33,075 bases of DNA, from the NCBI GenBank assembly GCA_902727985.1, contig CACVAY010000056.1, forward strand, positions 1 through 33,075, read 5' to 3'. The position numbers and the translations under genes were made by a program. Below, piece after piece: positions 20,910 to 31,565 of this stretch. This DNA is from an uncultured Thiotrichaceae bacterium (GTDB taxonomy: Bacteria; Pseudomonadota; Gammaproteobacteria; Thiotrichales; Thiotrichaceae). The notes below the pieces were generated by a model. It was not told where the DNA came from, did not search any database, and saw only the letters and a program-made list of their open reading frames with translations. Positions within the stretch are counted from its first letter, which is position 1; each line of letters starts with the position of its first letter.

Positions 20910-21437
20910 GTGAACAACTTTTTTCTTCAGGGACTTCAACATCCATTTTTTACACCAGCACACCTCATTACACTGCTTGCTCTTGCAATGCTATTGGGTA
21001 TACATAAGCGCACTCATGCTATTTTTGCACTACCTATTTTTGTTATTTTCGCACTGATGGGGCTACTAGCAACTCGCTTTTATCGACCTGACTTAAGCTT
21101 TGAGGTAATTTTATTAGCAGTTGCTGCCCTGATAGGCATTATCATTGCTATCAAAGTCACACTACCCAAAATGATGCTCTTTATTCTTGCCAGTATTATC
21201 GGCATAAGCATTGGACTTGATTCCGAAGTCATCATTATTCCTGGCCTAAAAGCAAGCACCACATACTTCAATATGCTTGGCACATTACTTAGCGTCAGTT
21301 TCACATTACTGATCACCACACTTATCTCAATGACACTCAATCCGTTATGGAATAGTATTGTTTTGCGTATTTTGGGGTCATGGGCATCCGCCAGCTCTTT
21401 AATGGTCTTGGCCTTTATATTTGCCCCAAAAGCATAA
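20910..21437 (+). CDS. HupE/UreJ-like membrane protein (putative metal permease)
   Basis: The 175-residue, highly hydrophobic protein has about six membrane segments. It opens with QGLQHPFFTPAHLITLLALAM, resembling the HP(x)nDH entry motif of HupE/UreJ nickel/cobalt permeases, and ends VLRILGSWASASSLMVLAF, like that family's GSW C terminus. The usual Asp before the second His is Ala here. The only plausible start is GTG at 20910. It is followed after 113 bases by a DUF1007-type periplasmic protein, and such pairs are associated with Ni, Co or Zn uptake. The metal is not determined. Family assignment is by eye and moderately secure. Confidence 0.65.
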   Translation: MNNFFLQGLQHPFFTPAHLITLLALAMLLGIHKRTHAIFALPIFVIFALMGLLATRFYRPDLSFEVILLAVAALIGIIIAIKVTLPKMMLFILASIIGISIGLDSEVIIIPGLKASTTYFNMLGTLLSVSFTLLITTLISMTLNPLWNSIVLRILGSWASASSLMVLAFIFAPKA

Positions 21438-21550
21438 CGAACAATGAACTCAACTATCGAATTTAGGTCTCTAAGAAACGCATAAGAAAAGTGAAAATAT
21501 CGGCACTTATCTTGATTCCTATTTACCTCTTTTGTTAACGAAAAAACACT

Positions 21551-22135
21551 ATGAAATATCAGATTTTACGACTTATTGCACTATTTACTTTCGCTCTTTC
21601 AACTCAAGCAACAGCTGGCGACTTTCATTATCAAATTGATGCGATGTCCAAAATACTTAGCGCTCCCAATAAACAGCTTGGTGCTTTACAAATGAGCTGG
21701 CTTTATGATGAGCAAACCACAACCATGCTCTTACAAGATGCAGATTTGTCACCTAAAAAGCGCCAGCATTCATTAAACACCATTGGCCAACGTACCATCA
21801 AAGACCTTAAGCGCTTAAACTACTTCACTGACATTAAAATCAATGGCAAGCCTGTAAAGCTAGCACCCCCTGAGAACCTCATGGTAGAACTCATTGATGG
21901 CAAATACTTCAGACTATTCTTCATTCTGCCCTTCTCAGAAACTGTGGATGCTAAAAATGGCACATTGAGTTTTAGCTTACTCGACCCAAATGGCATTGCA
22001 TTGCCGCTCTTTGATAGTCAGGAACGTATCAGTGTTGATGCAACACTACAAAATAGCTGTCACGTTAACTTGGTTAATTTTGAAGAATACAAACACGGGA
22101 CAGCAGCTCAACGCGTAGATGTCAGCTGCAAGTAA
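21551..22135 (+). CDS. DUF1007-family periplasmic protein (metal-uptake associated)
   Basis: The 194-residue protein has a signal peptide ending TQATA (about residue 22) and a single domain. Its blocks fit DUF1007: LGALQMSWLYDEQTTTMLL, IKDLKRLNYFTDIKINGKPV, LMVELIDGKYFRLFFILPF and GTLSFSLLDPNGIAL. In Haemophilus the relative ZevA works with a membrane partner in zinc uptake, and others sit beside Ni/Co permeases. The first domain strand carries few histidines compared with the typical HPHVF-type start, so metal binding may differ. It likely works with the preceding HupE-like gene. Confidence 0.75.
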   Translation: MKYQILRLIALFTFALSTQATAGDFHYQIDAMSKILSAPNKQLGALQMSWLYDEQTTTMLLQDADLSPKKRQHSLNTIGQRTIKDLKRLNYFTDIKINGKPVKLAPPENLMVELIDGKYFRLFFILPFSETVDAKNGTLSFSLLDPNGIALPLFDSQERISVDATLQNSCHVNLVNFEEYKHGTAAQRVDVSCK

Positions 22136-22164
22136 GTCGACATTGAAGTACAAAACGTAAAAAA

Positions 22165-22183
22165 GCCACGGTACTACCGTGGC
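22165..22183 (-). terminator. Terminator of tsaE-amiC
   Basis: GCCACGG, a TACTA loop and CCGTGGC form a perfect 7-bp GC-rich stem. On the minus strand it is followed by TTTTTTACG, 25 bases after the amiC stop. It also sits after the convergent DUF1007 gene and may serve both. Confidence 0.85.
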
Positions 22184-22207
22184 CAATTCACAATGAAGGG
22201 ATTTTGA

Positions 22208-23593
22208 TTACGAACTCACAGGAATGGATAAGTGCTGTCCGACTTTAATCGTTGAACTACTCAATTGATTTTCACGACGAAGTTGATTTAATGATACACC
22301 ATATTCACGAGCAATTTTAGAAATAGAATCGCCCGGTTGAACTATATGATTCGGAGCATTATCAACACTAGCATAACCATGTAATTTACCACCTGGCGCC
22401 AAGGTTAGTTGATAAGACTTAATGCCCCGAAACATTGCATTAGCCATCTTAGATTGGTAAGCGCTCGTTCTTAAGCGTTTCTCTTCTGTTGGATTACTAA
22501 TAAAAGCAGTTTCAACCAATATGGAGGGAATATCGGGTGACTTAAGCACCACAAACGCAGCACTCTCTACCTTACTATGCAAAAGACGGTTCACACCACC
22601 TAACTCACGTAGAGTACGTTTTGCAATATTCAAGCTATTATCAATAGTCGCCGCTTGTGACAAATCCATTAACATAGAATTCAAGGTACTGTCATTACTG
22701 AGATTTGCTCCAGCAAGGTTTGAATCATAGGCATTTTCTTTATTTGCCAACCACCTCGCCGCTTCACTCGAAGCGCCATTCTCAGAAAGTATATATACTG
22801 ATGACCCCTTCAAATTGCGATGGGGGTTTGCATCCGCATGAATAGAAATAAACAAATCAGCATGTTTACGACGTGCAATATCCATACGCTTTCTCAGAGG
22901 AACGTAATAGTCACCTTCACGAATCAACACACCACGCATACCTGGCTGACGATCAATTTTGGCTTTTAGCTTTTTTGCAATCTGTAGCACGACATCTTTC
23001 TCACGGGTACCACGCGCACCAACCGCGCCAGGATCTCGACCACCATGACCTGCATCAATAGCAACAACAAACGCACCACCACGCGATCTTAAAGGAGAAA
23101 TAGGTCTCTGTTCTTTAACTGGCTTTGTTGCTCTCTTTACAGGTGTTTTTTTATCTGATGCAGCTGTCTGGCTAGAGAACTTAAAGAAAACTTCAAGCTG
23201 ATTGCCTTTAACACTGGATTTTACCTCGGCGGTTTTCTTTAAATCCAACACAAGACGCAAATCATTCTTATTGCGGGTAGCGTAACGAAGCCCAGTAAAA
23301 TTCCTACCTTTTGTACCATTCAGTTTAAGATTTGATTGCTTGGTATTACTTAAATCAACAACCACACGATCAGGTGATTTAAGTGTGAAAATTTTGTGCT
23401 TAGCTGGACGATCAAGCGTGATAATTAACTTATCACCATTTTTGTCCGATGACACTTTTGCGCTTTTAATAAGCGCGACTTTATCCCCAGCAAGCAGCTC
23501 CATGGGCGCTAAAGACATTCCTATAGCCCCAGCTAATTTGGCTGCTTTGAGAATAAACTCTCTGCGATTTTGATTTTTAGTACATTCAGCCAT
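22208..23593 (-). CDS. amiC: N-acetylmuramoyl-L-alanine amidase with AMIN and LysM domains, Tat signal
   Basis: Cleaves the amide bond between MurNAc and the stem peptide at the septum during cell separation. The N terminus NRREFILKAAKLAGAIGMSLA contains a twin-arginine motif (Arg10-Arg11), so export through Tat is expected, as for E. coli AmiA and AmiC. An AMIN domain (about 40-135) directs the enzyme to the division site. A linker precedes the Amidase_3 zinc domain, with ligands in DAGHGG, GTREKD and SIHADA, and the catalytic Glu in VETAFISNPTEE. A C-terminal LysM (HIVQPGDSISKIAREYGVS) binds glycan. The 461-residue layout is like AmiB/AmiC of gammaproteobacteria; which of amiB or amiC is the better name is uncertain. 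tsaE lies 110 bases upstream. Confidence 0.9.
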   Translation of the reverse strand: MAECTKNQNRREFILKAAKLAGAIGMSLAPMELLAGDKVALIKSAKVSSDKNGDKLIITLDRPAKHKIFTLKSPDRVVVDLSNTKQSNLKLNGTKGRNFTGLRYATRNKNDLRLVLDLKKTAEVKSSVKGNQLEVFFKFSSQTAASDKKTPVKRATKPVKEQRPISPLRSRGGAFVVAIDAGHGGRDPGAVGARGTREKDVVLQIAKKLKAKIDRQPGMRGVLIREGDYYVPLRKRMDIARRKHADLFISIHADANPHRNLKGSSVYILSENGASSEAARWLANKENAYDSNLAGANLSNDSTLNSMLMDLSQAATIDNSLNIAKRTLRELGGVNRLLHSKVESAAFVVLKSPDIPSILVETAFISNPTEEKRLRTSAYQSKMANAMFRGIKSYQLTLAPGGKLHGYASVDNAPNHIVQPGDSISKIAREYGVSLNQLRRENQLSSSTIKVGQHLSIPVSS

Positions 23594-23703
23594 AATCTTC
23601 TATATATCAATGCTTAAGGTTAGATACCTATAGTAAAACCTAATCAGCAACTTATTTCAAGTAGAATTTAGAAGTATTTTGCAAGTAATTGTTTTTTAAC
23701 AAA

Positions 23704-24126
23704 TCACTGAAATTCTCTCACCATCCGACCTTCTTGTTGATAACTTAACTTGACTAATAAGTTCCCAGCAGGTAGAAAACCCTCCGCTTTCTCTGGCCAC
23801 TCGACCAAACATAAAGCGTCAGTTGAAAAATAATCACGTCCCCCCATATATTCCAGCTCTTCAGGATGCCCAAGACGATACAGATCAAAATGATAAATAG
23901 TCTTTCCTAGCAACTCATAAGGCTCAACCAAGGTATAGGTCGGACTCTTCACGGCACCAATATGGCCCCGTGCACGCAAAATTCCACGAACCAGAGTCGT
24001 CTTACCGGCTCCCAAATCTCCCTGCAAAAAAATAATGCCTCCATCTGCAAAACGCTTCGACAACTCAGCCCCATAATCGAGGACTGCTTGTTCATTTGCA
24101 CAAAAGTGCTCCAACACCTGCTCCAT
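23704..24126 (-). CDS. tsaE: tRNA threonylcarbamoyladenosine biosynthesis ATPase TsaE
   Basis: An ATPase that, with TsaB and TsaD, is needed for the t6A modification at position 37 of ANN-decoding tRNAs. The 140-residue protein has the P-loop GDLGAGKTT, the SPTYTLVEPY block, HFDLYRL and the C-terminal VEWPEKAEGFLP, all diagnostic of TsaE. It precedes amiC on the same strand, a common gammaproteobacterial pairing. The usual upstream nnrE gene is absent here; queG diverges on the other side. Confidence 0.95.
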   Translation of the reverse strand: MEQVLEHFCANEQAVLDYGAELSKRFADGGIIFLQGDLGAGKTTLVRGILRARGHIGAVKSPTYTLVEPYELLGKTIYHFDLYRLGHPEELEYMGGRDYFSTDALCLVEWPEKAEGFLPAGNLLVKLSYQQEGRMVREFQ

Positions 24127-24345
24127 AACGCATTAATTCCCTTTTACTCATTTCAATCAATTTTTAAGTATGGCAACAAGCTTTATAGCCACTCAGGTTG
24201 CCCACTCATTTATTCAAGAGCAAGTCAAAAAAGGCTGAGTGTAATAAAAAACATCACTAGCGGTTAAGCTGGGTAGCTATGTCGTCCATTGCATTCATGC
24301 AACACCACGGCTACCATAACTCATTCATTAAAACCTGCCTCTTTT

Positions 24346-25434
24346 ATGCCTCGCGAAACCATTTCAAATATCGATACCCCCAAGCTTATCAGCAAAATTC
24401 ATAATTGGGGCAAAGAGCTAGGCTTTCAACAACTAGGCTTTAGCGGCATTGATCTTTCAGATGCTGAACGCAATTTACATAACTGGCTGGCCAAAGGCTT
24501 TCATGGCGATATGGAATGGATGGCATCTCATGGCACAAAACGTTCTCGCCCGAAAGAACTTATACCCGACACCTACAGTATCATTTCCGTAAGGATGGAA
24601 TACTTACCTAATGAAGAGTTTGACCCTACATTGATTCTCAATCACCCTGAAATGGCATATATCTCGCGTTATGCACTAGGCCGCGATTATCATAAGATGA
24701 TGCGTAACAAACTGCAAAAACTTGCCAAGCATATCACTCAACACATTGGCGACTTTGGCTATCGTGTATTTGTAGATAGCGCTCCTGTATTGGAAAAACC
24801 CATTGCCGTTAAAGCAGGCTTAGGCTGGGTTGGAAAACACACGAACATCTTAAACCGAGAAGCTGGCTCATGGTTCTTTCTTGGAGAAATCTACCTCGAC
24901 CTAGAACTTCCCACCTCTGAACCTGTGGAAGAACATTGTGGTGACTGCACAGCCTGCATCGACGTATGCCCTACCGCAGCCATTATCGCCCCTTACAAGC
25001 TAGATGCGCGTCGCTGTATCTCTTACCTTACCATTGAGCATAAAGGCTCTATTCCTAAAGAATTCCGCACCGCAATAGGTAATCGAATCTACGGTTGCGA
25101 CGACTGTCAGCTGATATGCCCCTGGAACCGCTTTGCGAAAACCACGACAGAACAAGACTTCCAAGCCCGTCATCAACTAGACCAAACACATCTACTCACT
25201 TTGTTTGCATGGAATGAGGAGACATTTTTAAAGAACATGGAAGGCTCAGCTATCCGCCGCATTGGCTTTGAACGCTGGCAACGTAACCTTGCCATCGCAC
25301 TCGGAAATGCACCAACATCAGAAGCCATTTTTCAGGCACTAACAGACAAACTAAACTCCGCCTCTGAGCTTGTAACAGAGCATATCCATTGGTCGCTTTT
25401 ACAGCACCAGAAAAAGAGCACAACTGAAAAATAA
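24346..25434 (+). CDS. queG: Epoxyqueuosine reductase
   Basis: A cobalamin-dependent iron-sulfur enzyme that reduces epoxyqueuosine to queuosine in tRNA. I take the ATG at 24346 (362 residues, MPRETISN); a TTG-initiated extension to 24289 would add 19 unconserved residues. Diagnostic blocks are YALGRDYHKMMRNKL, FVDSAPVLEKPIAVKAGLGWVGKHTN, and two 4Fe-4S ligand sets, CGDCTACIDVCP and CDDCQLICPWN, followed by the C-terminal HEAT-like helices (FERWQRNLAIALGN). It diverges from tsaE, with about 220 bases between the starts. Confidence 0.95.
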   Translation: MPRETISNIDTPKLISKIHNWGKELGFQQLGFSGIDLSDAERNLHNWLAKGFHGDMEWMASHGTKRSRPKELIPDTYSIISVRMEYLPNEEFDPTLILNHPEMAYISRYALGRDYHKMMRNKLQKLAKHITQHIGDFGYRVFVDSAPVLEKPIAVKAGLGWVGKHTNILNREAGSWFFLGEIYLDLELPTSEPVEEHCGDCTACIDVCPTAAIIAPYKLDARRCISYLTIEHKGSIPKEFRTAIGNRIYGCDDCQLICPWNRFAKTTTEQDFQARHQLDQTHLLTLFAWNEETFLKNMEGSAIRRIGFERWQRNLAIALGNAPTSEAIFQALTDKLNSASELVTEHIHWSLLQHQKKSTTEK

Positions 25435-25439
25435 ATCCG

Positions 25440-25464
25440 CTTATGTATCTAAGGCTTACATAAG
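25440..25464 (+). repeat. Hairpin just after queG
   Basis: CTTATGTA, a 9-base loop and TACATAAG form a perfect 8-bp stem starting 6 bases after the queG stop. No T-tract follows, so its role as a terminator is doubtful. Confidence 0.35.
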
Positions 25465-25659
25465 GTAGAATACTCCCCCTAATTACTGTAGCCTTTCTAA
25501 CACGCCTTAAAAACTGTCTTTTGCGAACCTTTGTAGCCCCTATTAGCAGCTTCAGTTCCAAGGTTATGAAAACTCACGCATACAGTCATGATAGCATCTG
25601 CCAAGCATCACGCGATGTATGAACTTTTAGCTGAATAATCAATAACAAACCCTAAGTTA

Positions 25660-26928
25660 ATGCACAAAATTATAATATGGACAATCAGTGCGCTACTGAC
25701 CTTAAGCCATTCTACGGCTTTCGCAGAAGAGAGCACGAGCACAGACATCTACTCGGATACCCAACAATCGGTCTACCAAATCCGTGTCGCCAACAAACAA
25801 ACAGGCAATAAATCCTCTATTGGATCAGGCTTTATTGTTATACAAGGCGACATTCTTGCGACCAATTATCACGTTGTCAGCAGTTACGTGAATGATCCTG
25901 AGATGTACTCACTCGATTATCTGGGGAAAGATGGCAACGAAGGTTCGCTCAAGATTCTCGATTTAGATATCACTCATGACCTCGCCGTTCTACAGGCGGA
26001 TAAAAAGCTTGGCCCGCCCCTTAATATCGCGGGCCTTCCTGAGAAAGGTGCCAAACTTTTCTCTCTTGGAAATCCCATGGATTTAGGCTTCTCCATTGTA
26101 GAAAGCGTCAATAATGGCATCATGGAAAACAGTGAAGAAAAAAATATCTTAGTTTCCGGCAGCCTTAATCCAGGAATGAGCGGTGGCCCAACCTTAAACC
26201 AAGACGGTGAAGTCGTTGGAATCAATGTAGCAACATCAGGCAATGAAATAAGTTTTCTTGTCTCAGCTGAATATCTTGTAAAAATACTGGAGCGGCTTCA
26301 AGCTCGCAATTTCACACCAGTCGAGGATATATTCCAAACCATGTCGGCTCAGCTTACTGAGAACGCGCAAATGCAAATTGATCGATTACTCAACCAGCGC
26401 TGGAAAACCACCCAAACAGGAAAGTTTGAGGTGCCTTCACAGCTCTATAAAACCTATCGCTGCTGGGATGCTAGCCCATCCTTTCGGAAAGAAATCCTCT
26501 ACAAGCTAACATCGACCAGCTGCTCAAACCAATACAATATTTACTTAGATAACAACCTAGAGGTGGGTGGCATTGCCTATGAGTATCACTGGATAGATAC
26601 CGAAAAGCTCATTCCTCAACGTTTCTACTATTCTGCCTATGAGGTGCTCAACGACAGCGTCCCTCCTGGTAATGCAGGCAAGGAAGATGTGACCAACTTT
26701 GCTTGCCACACCAAATTCATCAAGATAAGTGACAACGAGTTCAAAGCAACCATTTGTCGACGTGACTATCTTGCCTATGCAGGACTGAGCGACGTTCTAA
26801 GCACGATTGCCATGGTTGGACACCCAAAAGAAGGCTTTATTTTTAATATGGATTTTGTTGGAACAGACTTTAACTCTGCCATGGATCTGCTACAGAAAAT
26901 GCTGGAGAAAATCACATGGACAGAATAA
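25660..26928 (+). CDS. Exported trypsin-like serine protease with unknown C-terminal domain
   Basis: The 422-residue protein has a signal peptide ending STAFA (about residue 22). A trypsin-like peptidase domain follows with a complete catalytic triad: His71 in TNYHVVS, Asp107 in THDLAVL and Ser174 in GMSGGPT. The domain ends near residue 212. There is no PDZ domain, unlike DegP/DegS. Residues about 225-422 form a domain I do not recognise, with four or more cysteines (CWDAS, STSCSN, FACHT, ATICRR) that could make disulfides in the periplasm. Its end overlaps the FHA gene by 13 bases, so the two are translationally coupled. Confidence 0.88.
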   Translation: MHKIIIWTISALLTLSHSTAFAEESTSTDIYSDTQQSVYQIRVANKQTGNKSSIGSGFIVIQGDILATNYHVVSSYVNDPEMYSLDYLGKDGNEGSLKILDLDITHDLAVLQADKKLGPPLNIAGLPEKGAKLFSLGNPMDLGFSIVESVNNGIMENSEEKNILVSGSLNPGMSGGPTLNQDGEVVGINVATSGNEISFLVSAEYLVKILERLQARNFTPVEDIFQTMSAQLTENAQMQIDRLLNQRWKTTQTGKFEVPSQLYKTYRCWDASPSFRKEILYKLTSTSCSNQYNIYLDNNLEVGGIAYEYHWIDTEKLIPQRFYYSAYEVLNDSVPPGNAGKEDVTNFACHTKFIKISDNEFKATICRRDYLAYAGLSDVLSTIAMVGHPKEGFIFNMDFVGTDFNSAMDLLQKMLEKITWTE

Positions 26929-27908
26929 TCGTTGCAACACATGTACGCGGTGCTGAGAACTACACTAAAGTTGATCAATTCCCAGCAACCATTGGACGTG
27001 CTCTGGATAATGACATTATTCTATCTGATCTTTCCGTATCTCCTCATCATCTAAAAATTGATAAAACTGAAAACGGTGATATCGAGGTCACGAATATATC
27101 AAATGAAAATGGCACCACACTGAATAAAGAAGAAATGGCCGAAGAACAAGGCAGCCTTATAAGCTGTCCTAGTACCTTATGGTTAGGCCATAGTAAAATT
27201 CGCCTACTGTCTCCTGATATGCCAGTAGAACCGACCAAGTTATGGGCTTGTACAGGCATTTTTTGTCTACTAACCAAAAAAATATGGGCTTTCACCCTGA
27301 CGTTCATTTTACTCGGTTTATTCACACTGGATCACTATCTTGGCACCCCCATTGATAAATCGATAAGCCACTTTATCAACGAAAGTTTCACCTCGGTACT
27401 CTACTTAATTGGCTTCTTCTTAATTATCGCAGGCATTAGTCGCTTGGCCACACATCGCTGGGATCTTATACCTGCACTGAGTGTCGCCACACTGTTTTTC
27501 CTGATCCCTAAATTATTCAGCTACAGTAGCGAATTAATCAATTACTTCTTCTCAACAACAACGTTCTCAAGTATTTCTTTATACGCACTGGATTTCTTGC
27601 TGCTTCCCGTTTTACTCGTCCTTTTCATGACACGTATTGCGCACAGCCCCCTAGGGCCATCCATTGGTGTTTCCCTACTTGTCAGCTCACCCTTTATTGC
27701 ACTAAAAGCAAAAGAATTAGCTGATGATCTGACCCGCCCTGATTTCTCACAACTTCCTTCCTACAATAGAACATTAAGCTCGTTTGATATTCGCAAAGAT
27801 GAGAGTATTTCAACCACCAGCTTTTTGGAAGAAGCGGAACAATTCTTATCAGAACAAATGCAAATTGAGCTGGAAAAAGCGAATAAAGAACAACGAAAGG
27901 ATAATTAG
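26916..27908 (+). CDS. FHA-domain integral membrane protein
   Basis: An N-terminal forkhead-associated domain (about residues 5-98) shows Gly27-Arg28 in PATIGRALDND, the phosphothreonine loop LSVSPHHLKI (the usual Arg of SRxH is Pro) and NENGTTLN with the Asn65-Gly66 pair. Five or so membrane segments follow, near residues 123-138, 160-176, 184-201, 220-238 and 246-264. A charged C-terminal helix (SFLEEAEQFLSEQ) ends the protein. By topology the FHA domain lies in the cytoplasm, where it could read Ser/Thr phosphorylation. It is coupled to the upstream periplasmic protease gene by a 13-base overlap, suggesting one functional unit. No kinase or phosphatase gene is in the window. Confidence 0.85.
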   Translation: MDRIIVATHVRGAENYTKVDQFPATIGRALDNDIILSDLSVSPHHLKIDKTENGDIEVTNISNENGTTLNKEEMAEEQGSLISCPSTLWLGHSKIRLLSPDMPVEPTKLWACTGIFCLLTKKIWAFTLTFILLGLFTLDHYLGTPIDKSISHFINESFTSVLYLIGFFLIIAGISRLATHRWDLIPALSVATLFFLIPKLFSYSSELINYFFSTTTFSSISLYALDFLLLPVLLVLFMTRIAHSPLGPSIGVSLLVSSPFIALKAKELADDLTRPDFSQLPSYNRTLSSFDIRKDESISTTSFLEEAEQFLSEQMQIELEKANKEQRKDN

Positions 27909-27909
27909 T

Positions 27910-28605
27910 ATGCCCACATTACTCATAACAGGTGCAAATCGCGGTATAGGTTTAGAACTATGCAAACAATATCTTGCTGAAGATTGGACAATTCACGCGA
28001 CTTGTCGTCAGCCAGAAAGTGCACAAGAACTGAATAAATTATGCCAGGCAAGCAATGGCAAACTAACGGTTCACCCATTGGACGTCACCAACCCGACACA
28101 AATCAAAAACCTCCAACAGGTTCTCAAAAACACCTCTATCGATATCCTGCTCAATAACGCAGGCGTACATGCACAAGATGCCTCACAATTTGGCAAAAGT
28201 GATGAAGCGACTTGGGATGAGGCAGTGCATGTGAATTTATTAGCCCCCCTAAAAATGATGGAACATTTTGTTGATCATGTCGGGGATAGTGAACAACGCT
28301 TAATAGTTAATATGAGTAGTAAAATGGGCAGCATAGCTGATAATGGCTCCGGCGGTGCCTATGCCTATCGTGCAACAAAAGCCGCCCTGAATGCTGTTAC
28401 TGTCAGCGCAGCACAAGACCTCAAATATCGTAAAATTAATGTTATCGTTATGCACCCTGGCTGGGTAAGAACGGACATGGGTGGCCCAAATGGTGAGATT
28501 TCAGTAGCAGAATGTGCCACTCAACTACGCGCCATCTTTGGCAAACTCACCCTCAAAGACAGCGGCAAGTTTCTTGATATTGATGGTACTGAGATTCCTT
28601 GGTAA
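27910..28605 (+). CDS. Short-chain dehydrogenase/reductase
   Basis: An NAD(P)-dependent oxidoreductase with a Rossmann fold. The start at 27910, one base after the FHA stop, gives 231 residues beginning MPTLLITGANRGIG, with the cofactor motif TGxxxGIG at 7-14; a longer in-frame reading into the FHA gene is not plausible. NNAG at 82-85, Ser137 in NMSSKMG and the YxxxK pair Tyr153/Lys157 complete the active site. The protein resembles the C-factor/sniffer-like group. It appears to be the third gene of the protease-FHA transcript; substrate unknown. It ends 4 bases before the convergent lipoprotein gene. Confidence 0.9.
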   Translation: MPTLLITGANRGIGLELCKQYLAEDWTIHATCRQPESAQELNKLCQASNGKLTVHPLDVTNPTQIKNLQQVLKNTSIDILLNNAGVHAQDASQFGKSDEATWDEAVHVNLLAPLKMMEHFVDHVGDSEQRLIVNMSSKMGSIADNGSGGAYAYRATKAALNAVTVSAAQDLKYRKINVIVMHPGWVRTDMGGPNGEISVAECATQLRAIFGKLTLKDSGKFLDIDGTEIPW

Positions 28606-28609
28606 GCAA

Positions 28610-29386
28610 CTAATATACCGGGTTTAAGTAGGAACGAATTCTATCTTCAACAGCTCCTCCACTAAACCCGGTATTATCTTCCACCGACTCAACAAAAGCC
28701 GCTAACACTCGCTCATCGCTGGTTTGTTTTTCCATACGTGATAGCACTATTGGCAAACGCTTCTCATCAAAACTCACATAATCCAGTAGCGGATATAGAC
28801 CATCTTTGACATTCTGCATGGCATGCAAGTTATAAATCAAACGCTTACGCTCTCTCCCCTTCGCCTGTTGAACCATCTTCGGCGTATTTTCATGCAGTCT
28901 CTCCAATAAAAAAAGCACCTGCAACTCTTTGGTCATTCGCAAAATACGCCGTAACTCCCGCATTTCAGGATCACCTATCGATTGCTCAAAAGATTGTCGA
29001 TTAGACCATGGAGCACCTCTTGGCATTGCATTCACCAACCAAATAGGCAAAGGAACTTGTTCTTTTTGTAAATACTGAAGATACTTCGGAAAAGAACTTT
29101 TAGCAGTGAGAACACTCGTTTGTGGATACCAGACAAACCCAAAACCAAGATTCAAGGATTGCTGCTGGTCATTCCATTGAACAATACGGTCAGCATCTCC
29201 TTGGGTAATATTCTGATATAAACGCTGACTTACGCGAGATAATTCATCCTCTGAAATTTTAGAGAAATAAGGGGCAGCGCCCTGATTATAGATAGGCTCG
29301 GCTTCCGGTACATTATGACTCACACCACACGCTGATAGAAAAACAGCAAACACCATTAAAAAAACATACACCCTACATCGAATCAT
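28610..29386 (-). CDS. Lipoprotein of unknown function
   Basis: The 258-residue protein has a lipoprotein signal with lipobox LSAC and lipidation at Cys20. The mature part is mostly helical and polar, with a basic middle (AKGRERKRLIYNLHAM) and no motif I recognise. It lies downstream of proB on the same strand (42 bases between) and may belong to the obgE-proB transcript. Mature residue +2 is Gly, so outer-membrane sorting is expected. Role unknown. Confidence 0.75.
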   Translation of the reverse strand: MIRCRVYVFLMVFAVFLSACGVSHNVPEAEPIYNQGAAPYFSKISEDELSRVSQRLYQNITQGDADRIVQWNDQQQSLNLGFGFVWYPQTSVLTAKSSFPKYLQYLQKEQVPLPIWLVNAMPRGAPWSNRQSFEQSIGDPEMRELRRILRMTKELQVLFLLERLHENTPKMVQQAKGRERKRLIYNLHAMQNVKDGLYPLLDYVSFDEKRLPIVLSRMEKQTSDERVLAAFVESVEDNTGFSGGAVEDRIRSYLNPVY

Positions 29387-29428
29387 TGCTACCCCTTAAG
29401 CTTATTCGAAAAACTTCCGCCAAGGCTC

Positions 29429-31565
<2,137 letters not shown>

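Follow-up and report, generated by a model that had tools for sequence, protein, structure and literature searches.

Few routes are known by which bacteria control proteolysis outside the inner membrane from within, and the model case is LapD-LapG, in which a receptor of the inner membrane, sensing on its cytoplasmic side and reaching into the periplasm, is made by a cytoplasmic ligand to bind a periplasmic protease, giving inside-out control of that protease (PMC3032553). A two-gene locus of similar layout was analysed on a 33,075-nucleotide contig of an uncultured Thiotrichaceae bacterium (assembly GCA_902727985.1, 3.54 Mb in 152 contigs; contig CACVAY010000056.1, our contig C56, analysed in its entirety and called the window), encoding an exported trypsin-like serine protease and, overlapping it, a membrane protein with an N-terminal FHA domain, referred to as the partner. 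By comparison of parts, the pair does not belong to the LapD-LapG family. LapD reads cyclic diguanylate (c-di-GMP) with degenerate GGDEF and EAL domains and relies on HAMP and on a periplasmic domain for its output, and LapG is a cysteine protease (PMC3032553), whereas in the window an FHA domain is joined to five helices and a short tail, and the protease is a serine protease with a His-Asp-Ser triad. Only FHA and the FHA-like Yop-YscD_cpl family pass their cut-offs in the window partner, with no GGDEF, EAL or HAMP match at E ≤ 1, and none of these three is among the families listed for 94 aligned partners. Taken as an analogy, LapD-LapG is the closest working counterpart.

The protease shares its catalytic-domain fold and triad with the HtrA/Deg proteases (S1C; DegS, DegP, HtrA1), from which it differs in having no PDZ match, another C-terminal domain with four Cys, and the motif GMSGGP, and it falls below the NCBIfam cut-offs of the Do family (62.6 of 416.2 bits) and DegS (43.4 of 422.95 bits). 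In MarP, the mycobacterial membrane serine protease Rv3671c (structure 3k6y), a trypsin-like protease is likewise attached to a membrane part of several helices; the window protease superposes on 3k6y with Z 24.8 (rmsd, root-mean-square deviation, 2.6; 189 aligned), and scores 61.3 bits against the MarP NCBIfam model (cut-off 250). MarP is one polypeptide, whereas the membrane part here is a separate protein with an FHA domain. Type VI secretion differs from the pair in being a secretion machine and not a protease, and no gene of that system was recognised by eye among the open reading frames of the window, no search aimed at it having been made. Its likeness lies in Fha/PpkA, where an envelope process is controlled through phosphothreonine recognised by FHA (PMC3953482). 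FHA and a trypsin-family protease are combined in Bacteroides thetaiotaomicron NP_811686.1, an FHA-FHA-trypsin fusion recorded once in a survey and, on the survey's entry, a single chain with two FHA domains, unlike a two-gene exported module (PMC2605481). No description of the protease-FHA pair was found among open papers in PubMed Central, a coverage that leaves most subscription journals outside and novelty unproven.

A conserved two-gene module

Distinct proteases carrying the C-terminal domain were pooled into one set of 134 loci, with the window's own copies left out. Seven of these have fewer than 300 bases of downstream sequence, and a same-strand membrane partner directly follows the protease in 127 of 127 evaluable distinct loci, with an FHA domain detectable in 121 of the 127 partners. 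The profiles behind this count were built from members of these loci, and the first finds and the reverse search described below did not ask for a protease. The adjacency, first noticed in a sequence-only reading of this one contig, is thus not confined to one genome.

Within the window's family, the protease search matched 56 of 60 genomes at E 4e-97 or better, and the partner, used as a single query sequence, matched strongly in 53 of 60 (E 3e-43 or better), the window being included in both counts (G, C, L and f numbers are our labels for genomes, contigs, loci and families). The three family genomes with a protease and no partner match have a contig that stops inside the gene (G028), a contig that stops 42 bases past the match (G042), or a match cut at base 3 of the contig (G002), and in G046 the two genes lie at the ends of different contigs.

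In the class, the C-terminal domain profiles matched 25 of 369 genomes, and a reverse search using only the partner's helices and tail matched 23, of which 22 also have the protease C-terminal domain. The protease genomes absent from the reverse search are G202, where the end of the contig truncates the protease, G360, whose contig ends 294 bases on with the start of the FHA domain visible, and G303 (protease match at E 7.6e-4 in a 56-residue frame, probably spurious), and the helices and tail gave a very weak partial match (E 2.3e-4) in G251, which has no match to the protease C-terminal domain. Because 22 genomes share both parts, and only two contig ends and two very weak matches depart from this pattern, the protease C-terminal domain and the helices and tail are taken as co-occurring strictly in this class sample. 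In the phylum, the C-terminal domain profiles matched 19 of 398 genomes, five of them outside the class, and the partner is adjacent in these five.

Relatives across named genomes were gathered by scanning for two short peptide patterns, with at least 551 confirmed by tblastn and the best 80 kept, so that the scan favours close relatives. The closest full-length named relatives of the window protease among the matches listed are Thiotrichaceae metagenome-assembled genomes (MAGs), for example JALXAX010000165 and WFWY01000166 at 71% identity. The best 80 of at least 551 include Cocleimonas flava, Leucothrix arctica, several Thiothrix and Thiolinea disciformis, as well as Chromatiales and other gammaproteobacterial MAGs, an Olavius symbiont, a Cardiobacteriaceae MAG, and MAGs titled Omnitrophota (six) and Fibrobacteres (one), in which the pair is present, and two loci of these last-named MAGs (L137 and L148) have neighbours unlike those in Thiotrichaceae.

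Gene content was compared in 83 neighbourhoods, those of the window, of L035 and L036, and of the 80 named loci. Of these, 80 contain the protease cluster and 77 the partner cluster, and the next commonest gene, a queG-type neighbour, is in 24. Since the pair stands in differing housekeeping contexts, it looks self-contained, and on its distribution it is, by all indications, a conserved, old two-gene module and not an accident of one genome.

The way in which the two genes overlap is itself conserved. With partner starts picked by a simple rule, the overlap is 13 bases in 87 of 121 loci, 16 in 11, 10 in nine and 4 in five, and the remaining nine have 25 bases (two), 28 (one), 1 (one) or no overlap as called (five). 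The Trp codon on which the partner starts, W420, is the conserved last Trp of the protease, present in 90 of 95 aligned proteases. In the window, the upstream GGAG sits within Leu-Glu codons of the protease, and a Shine-Dalgarno-like 4-mer precedes the partner in 94 of 121 loci, a count made without a shuffled control. From the 13-base overlap at W420 and the GGAG inside the protease gene, translational coupling of protease and partner may naturally be inferred.

Architecture of the protease and its partner

The features of the pair are given in Table 1.

Table 1. Features of the protease-partner locus, in window coordinates.
Feature	Position	Strand	Basis and details
Exported trypsin-like serine protease gene	25660-26928	+	422 aa; open reading frame and Pfam Trypsin_2
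Sec signal peptide, about residues 1-22 (..STAFA/EE)	25660-25725	+	Hydrophobic N-terminus; putative cleavage site
Trypsin/HtrA-type catalytic domain, residues 38-215 (H71/D107/S174, GMSGGP)	25771-26304	+	Alignment, structure comparison
C-terminal alpha/beta domain, residues 224-422 and stop, four conserved Cys	26329-26928	+	Model, high confidence
Shine-Dalgarno-like GGAG inside the protease gene, 8 bases before the partner ATG	26904-26907	+	Sequence
Gene overlap of 13 bases; partner ATG on A-TGG of the W420 codon	26916-26928	+	Sequence; 13 bases in 87/121 loci
FHA-membrane protein gene (partner)	26916-27908	+	330 aa; open reading frame, Pfam, model
Cytoplasmic FHA domain, residues 1-98 (R28, S42, H45, N65)	26916-27209	+	Pfam, structure comparison
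Membrane helix 1, residues 122-143	27279-27344	+	Model, loop charges
Membrane helix 2, residues 150-179	27363-27452	+	Model, loop charges
Membrane helix 3, residues 184-212	27465-27551	+	Model, loop charges
Membrane helix 4, residues 216-241	27561-27638	+	Model, loop charges
Membrane helix 5, residues 246-272	27651-27731	+	Model, loop charges
Predicted periplasmic tail, residues 273-330, extended part then helix	27732-27905	+	Conservation; tail recognisable in FHA-less relatives

The protease matches Trypsin_2 with E 2e-20 over residues 55-188, and H71, D107 and S174 are kept in 95 of 95 aligned proteases (window included); a simple scan of the same proteases found a similar h-region in 85 and an AxA-like site in 90. 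The AlphaFold2 model has a mean pLDDT (predicted local distance difference test) of 94.4, and its catalytic domain superposes on HtrA1 (3tjn_B) with a VIA-align Z of 26.3, rmsd 2.9 and 189 aligned residues. HtrA proteases usually have GNSGGP, with Asn before the catalytic Ser, and Met at that place is unusual. In GMSGGP (residues 172-177), Met173 directly precedes the catalytic Ser in 95 of 95, an invariance that comes partly from selection, because part of the alignment was gathered by means of this motif.

Pfam gave no match for the window's own C-terminal domain, and a PDB sequence search with this domain gave nothing significant (best E 0.26). Among 17 C-terminal domain members, matches to seven Pfam families were found, each in one member alone, and PDZ at E ≤ 1 was found neither in the window protease nor in these 17 domains. 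Of the four Cys, C268, C288 and C366 are kept in 95 of 95 aligned proteases, and C349 in 94. The pairs C268/C288 and C349/C366 occupy facing positions of two predicted beta hairpins (266-270/282-290 and 348-356/359-370), from which two cross-strand disulphides may fairly be inferred. The Foldseek and VIA lists for the protease are filled by its catalytic domain and do not reveal the fold of the C-terminal domain. An NTF2 fold is not claimed for it, since RsgI9 S1C-NTF2 (7sjy) ranked high, but the 193 aligned residues may be nearly all protease.

In the partner, the Pfam FHA family (PF00498) matches residues 25-76 with E 1.2e-10 and 42.1 bits (cut-off 20.7), and a match at E ≤ 0.01 is present in 93 of the 94 aligned partners, which, here and below, include the window. 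Residues 1-100 form an FHA beta-sandwich, as judged by superposition on the FHA domain of MDC1 (3umz_A) and on DgcB (6hbz_B) (VIA-align Z 15.8, rmsd 2.0, 100 aligned). The AlphaFold2 model (mean pLDDT 94.0) has five membrane helices, and hydrophobic peaks number five in 84 of the 94 partners, six in seven and four in three. As a type III secretion ring protein SctD, the partner was rejected, scoring 14.6 bits against TIGR02500 (cut-off 86), and its Yop-YscD_cpl match (40.1 bits) falls on the FHA region. The sequence-only reading had described an exported trypsin-like protease with an intact triad and an unrecognised Cys-containing C-terminal domain, overlapping by 13 bases a gene for an FHA domain and about five helices, and this description holds in each of its parts, the two open reading frames being confirmed.

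The orientation of the partner was read from its loops. Averaged over the 94 partners, K+R per loop is 1.23, 2.23 and 2.16 in the predicted inner segments versus 1.26, 0.15 and 0.86 in the outer ones, and D+E is 0.30, 0.65 and 0.07 versus 1.48, 1.11 and 2.54; for the first inner/outer pair, K+R alone does not discriminate. The FHA domain, which is N-terminal and not preceded by a signal sequence, could meet phosphoproteins only on the cytoplasmic side, so that five helices would put the C-terminus outside, and the tail (residues 273-330) would then share the compartment of the protease. Prediction thus supports an N-in/C-out partner with a cytoplasmic FHA domain and a short, conserved periplasmic tail. 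Tail residues are kept in 83 (F277), 56 (P281), 70 (Y283), 83 (L287) and 68 (F303) of the 94 partners, and the mean information of its extended part (273-299) is 1.79 bits, versus 1.52-1.74 in the helices and 2.11 in the FHA domain.

Retention and loss of the FHA domain

The conserved phospho-site residues of FHA domains are R, S/T, H and N, with the Ser contacting the phosphate. The window partner has the full set (R28, S42, H45 and N65). Among the 94 aligned partners, G27 is present in all, R28, H45 and N65 in 91 each, and S42 in 62, and the full set is found in 62. Phosphothreonine binding is plausible, on these residues, for the window FHA domain, and doubtful for a third of the window partner's relatives.

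The window's genome has two Hanks-type kinase (Pkinase) genes (L033 on contig C38 and L034 on contig C12). Either could be a source of phosphothreonine, and neither is linked to the module. The L033 kinase gene adjoins a gene that looks, by eye, like type II secretion GspC. Hanks kinases are found in 325 of the 369 class genomes and in 23 of the 25 module genomes, and because they are common in the class, their presence in module genomes proves nothing. The only module genomes of the class sample without a kinase match, G207 and G319, both belong to family f149.

In f149, the protease is present in 12 of 12 genomes, the helices are kept in 12 of 12 partners (by profile), and a tail can be made out in each partner that was aligned or read. 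Six of the 12 partners (L152, L153, L155/L058, L158, L159 and L160) have no FHA domain at all, and in the other six it is degenerate, with S42 replaced in all six and R28 in four (L149/L053, L150, L151, judged from L147, and L154); all FHA states other than those of L053 and L147 were judged by eye. L147, a Cardiobacteriaceae locus, has the same protease C-terminus as L151 and probably belongs to f149. With the FHA domain lost while helices, tail and protease stay, this family shows the helices and tail to be the constant partner of the protease, and the FHA domain to be a removable input. The tails of the FHA-less partners (L152, L153, L155, L158, L159 and L160) follow an approximate pattern of two aromatic residues and then P-x-(Y/F)-(H/N)-x-x-L, and the partners of L159 and L160 begin with an unrelated charged stretch.

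A Hanks kinase match was found in five of the 12 f149 genomes, partial in each case (40-53 bits). FHA loss does not track kinase absence in each single genome: a partial kinase match is present in G432, G434 and G435, half of the six genomes without the FHA domain. FHA loss and kinase scarcity are concordant, in one family whose genomes do not count as statistically independent cases.

Control of the protease across the inner membrane

In the mechanism proposed here, the protease and its dedicated inner-membrane partner would form one functional unit. The protease would attach to the helices and tail, probably with its four-Cys C-terminal domain, and be held or gated by them at the inner membrane. 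The FHA domain would, less certainly, dock a threonine-phosphorylated cytoplasmic protein, and this docking event would be relayed through the five helices to the tail, changing protease activity or substrate access. A physical partnership of the two proteins in a dedicated complex at the inner membrane is probable, and inside-out control of the periplasmic protease through the FHA domain, the mechanism as a whole, is given a probability of about 0.5. The fuller proposal, that cytoplasmic threonine phosphorylation, read by the FHA domain, controls the periplasmic serine protease across the inner membrane, and that a kinase-poor lineage shed or degraded the FHA domain and kept switch and protease, is tentative, at somewhat better than one chance in three. 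The sequence-only reading had suggested a link between cytoplasmic phosphorylation and periplasmic proteolysis. What stands of it is the conserved module, a topology suited to a link across the inner membrane, the full residue set of the window FHA domain, and the presence of two Hanks-type kinase genes elsewhere in the genome; a phospho-link common to all pairs does not stand, given the partners that lack the full set and the deleted or degenerate FHA domains of f149.

Several findings weigh against control through the FHA domain and tail. The full FHA set is missing in 32 of 94 partners, mostly through replacement of S42 by A, C, E or D, and these partners include genomes that have kinases. 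No kinase gene adjoins the window's pair, as had already been noticed from the contig itself, both Pkinase matches of the genome being on other contigs. Co-variation was computed on 127 protease-partner pairs, window included (effective number 85), an underpowered set in which tail-protease pairs made up 5 of the top 100 versus about 13.7 expected, and in which only FHA versus the protease C-terminal domain had a mild excess (27 versus 16.5 expected). Direct contact between these two domains is impossible if the topology is right, and their excess may reflect shared ancestry; the strongest co-varying pair, T421-D2, is the coding overlap itself. The last tail helix (300-329) is the least conserved region of the partner, at 1.36 bits, and the tail could serve for assembly alone.

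The alternative that survives best is anchoring or assembly, in which the membrane protein localises or stabilises the protease at the inner membrane and the FHA domain tethers the resulting complex to a cytoplasmic or cell-division partner, with no switch of proteolysis. We consider this unlikely, at about half the weight of FHA-dependent control. It would accommodate both the incomplete FHA sets and the FHA losses that leave the pair intact, and FHA domains are often scaffolds, but the near-invariance of G27, R28, H45 and N65 suggests a kept binding surface, and a lipid anchor on the protease would be cheaper.

Less likely again is signalling from outside in, modelled on the cleavage of RseA by DegS, in which envelope damage would activate the protease, the periplasmic tail of the partner would be cleaved, and FHA binding inside the cell would be altered. 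In its favour are the conservation of the tail, the partly extended form predicted for it, and an HtrA-like catalytic domain, a fold that serves in stress sensing. Against this, Pfam found no PDZ domain in the protease, inspection by eye of the 25 commonest neighbour clusters revealed no sigma or anti-sigma gene, six partners keep the tail with no FHA domain to report to, and five-helix proteins are unusual as substrates of such cascades. By the same inspection of these 25 clusters, no two-component, kinase or phosphatase gene was recognised.

An ordinary envelope quality-control protease with a merely co-transcribed membrane-protein neighbour would fit the plain HtrA type of the catalytic domain, but is very improbable in view of the 127 of 127 pairing in varied neighbourhoods, the conserved overlap, and the lack of any convincing orphan in 369 genomes. 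A three-gene module with the downstream short-chain dehydrogenase/reductase (SDR) gene, a possibility raised in the sequence-only reading, has the slightest chance of all and is rejected as a general feature, since, of the loci examined, only the window, L004, L005 and L011, which belong to a single genus, have the SDR immediately after the pair, and the SDR cluster occurs in only 4 of 83 neighbourhoods (the window, L069, L099 and L131, in the last about 4 kb off and on the other strand).

If inside-out control through the FHA domain is true, the pair would be an undescribed, widespread module and the phospho-signalling counterpart of LapD-LapG, and Hanks kinases of Gram-negative bacteria would gain a possible periplasmic output. 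The two-gene form, the conserved coding overlap and the natural FHA-less variants make the module directly testable.

Neighbouring genes and other observations

An anti-phage role was considered and rejected; PADLOC gave matches on the protease domain only (best RT-Protease_XI, 51.5 bits) and none on the FHA protein. A mobile element was likewise rejected; plasmids gave no match for the window's C-terminal domain, and a plasmid search for a full-length relative returned 161 records, none over more than 80% of the length and all at less than 60% identity. No tRNA was found in the window, and no Rfam RNA in 21400-29500.

A putative lipoprotein of 258 residues, with no convincing Pfam or NCBIfam match, is encoded on the minus strand at 28610-29386, and a gene resembling it comes, by eye, after the SDR in L004 and L005. 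At 20910-22135, a HupE/UreJ-family membrane protein gene is followed by a DUF1007 gene, perhaps a metal-uptake pair. The second FHA gene of the genome (L002, G000:C72, minus strand, 484-1776) encodes 431 residues with an FHA-like start and one membrane helix, and beside it, at 1813-2490 on the same strand, lies the gene for a 226-residue protein like a secretin N-terminus; by eye, the two look like the type III secretion pair SctD and SctC, here in a member of the Thiotrichaceae.

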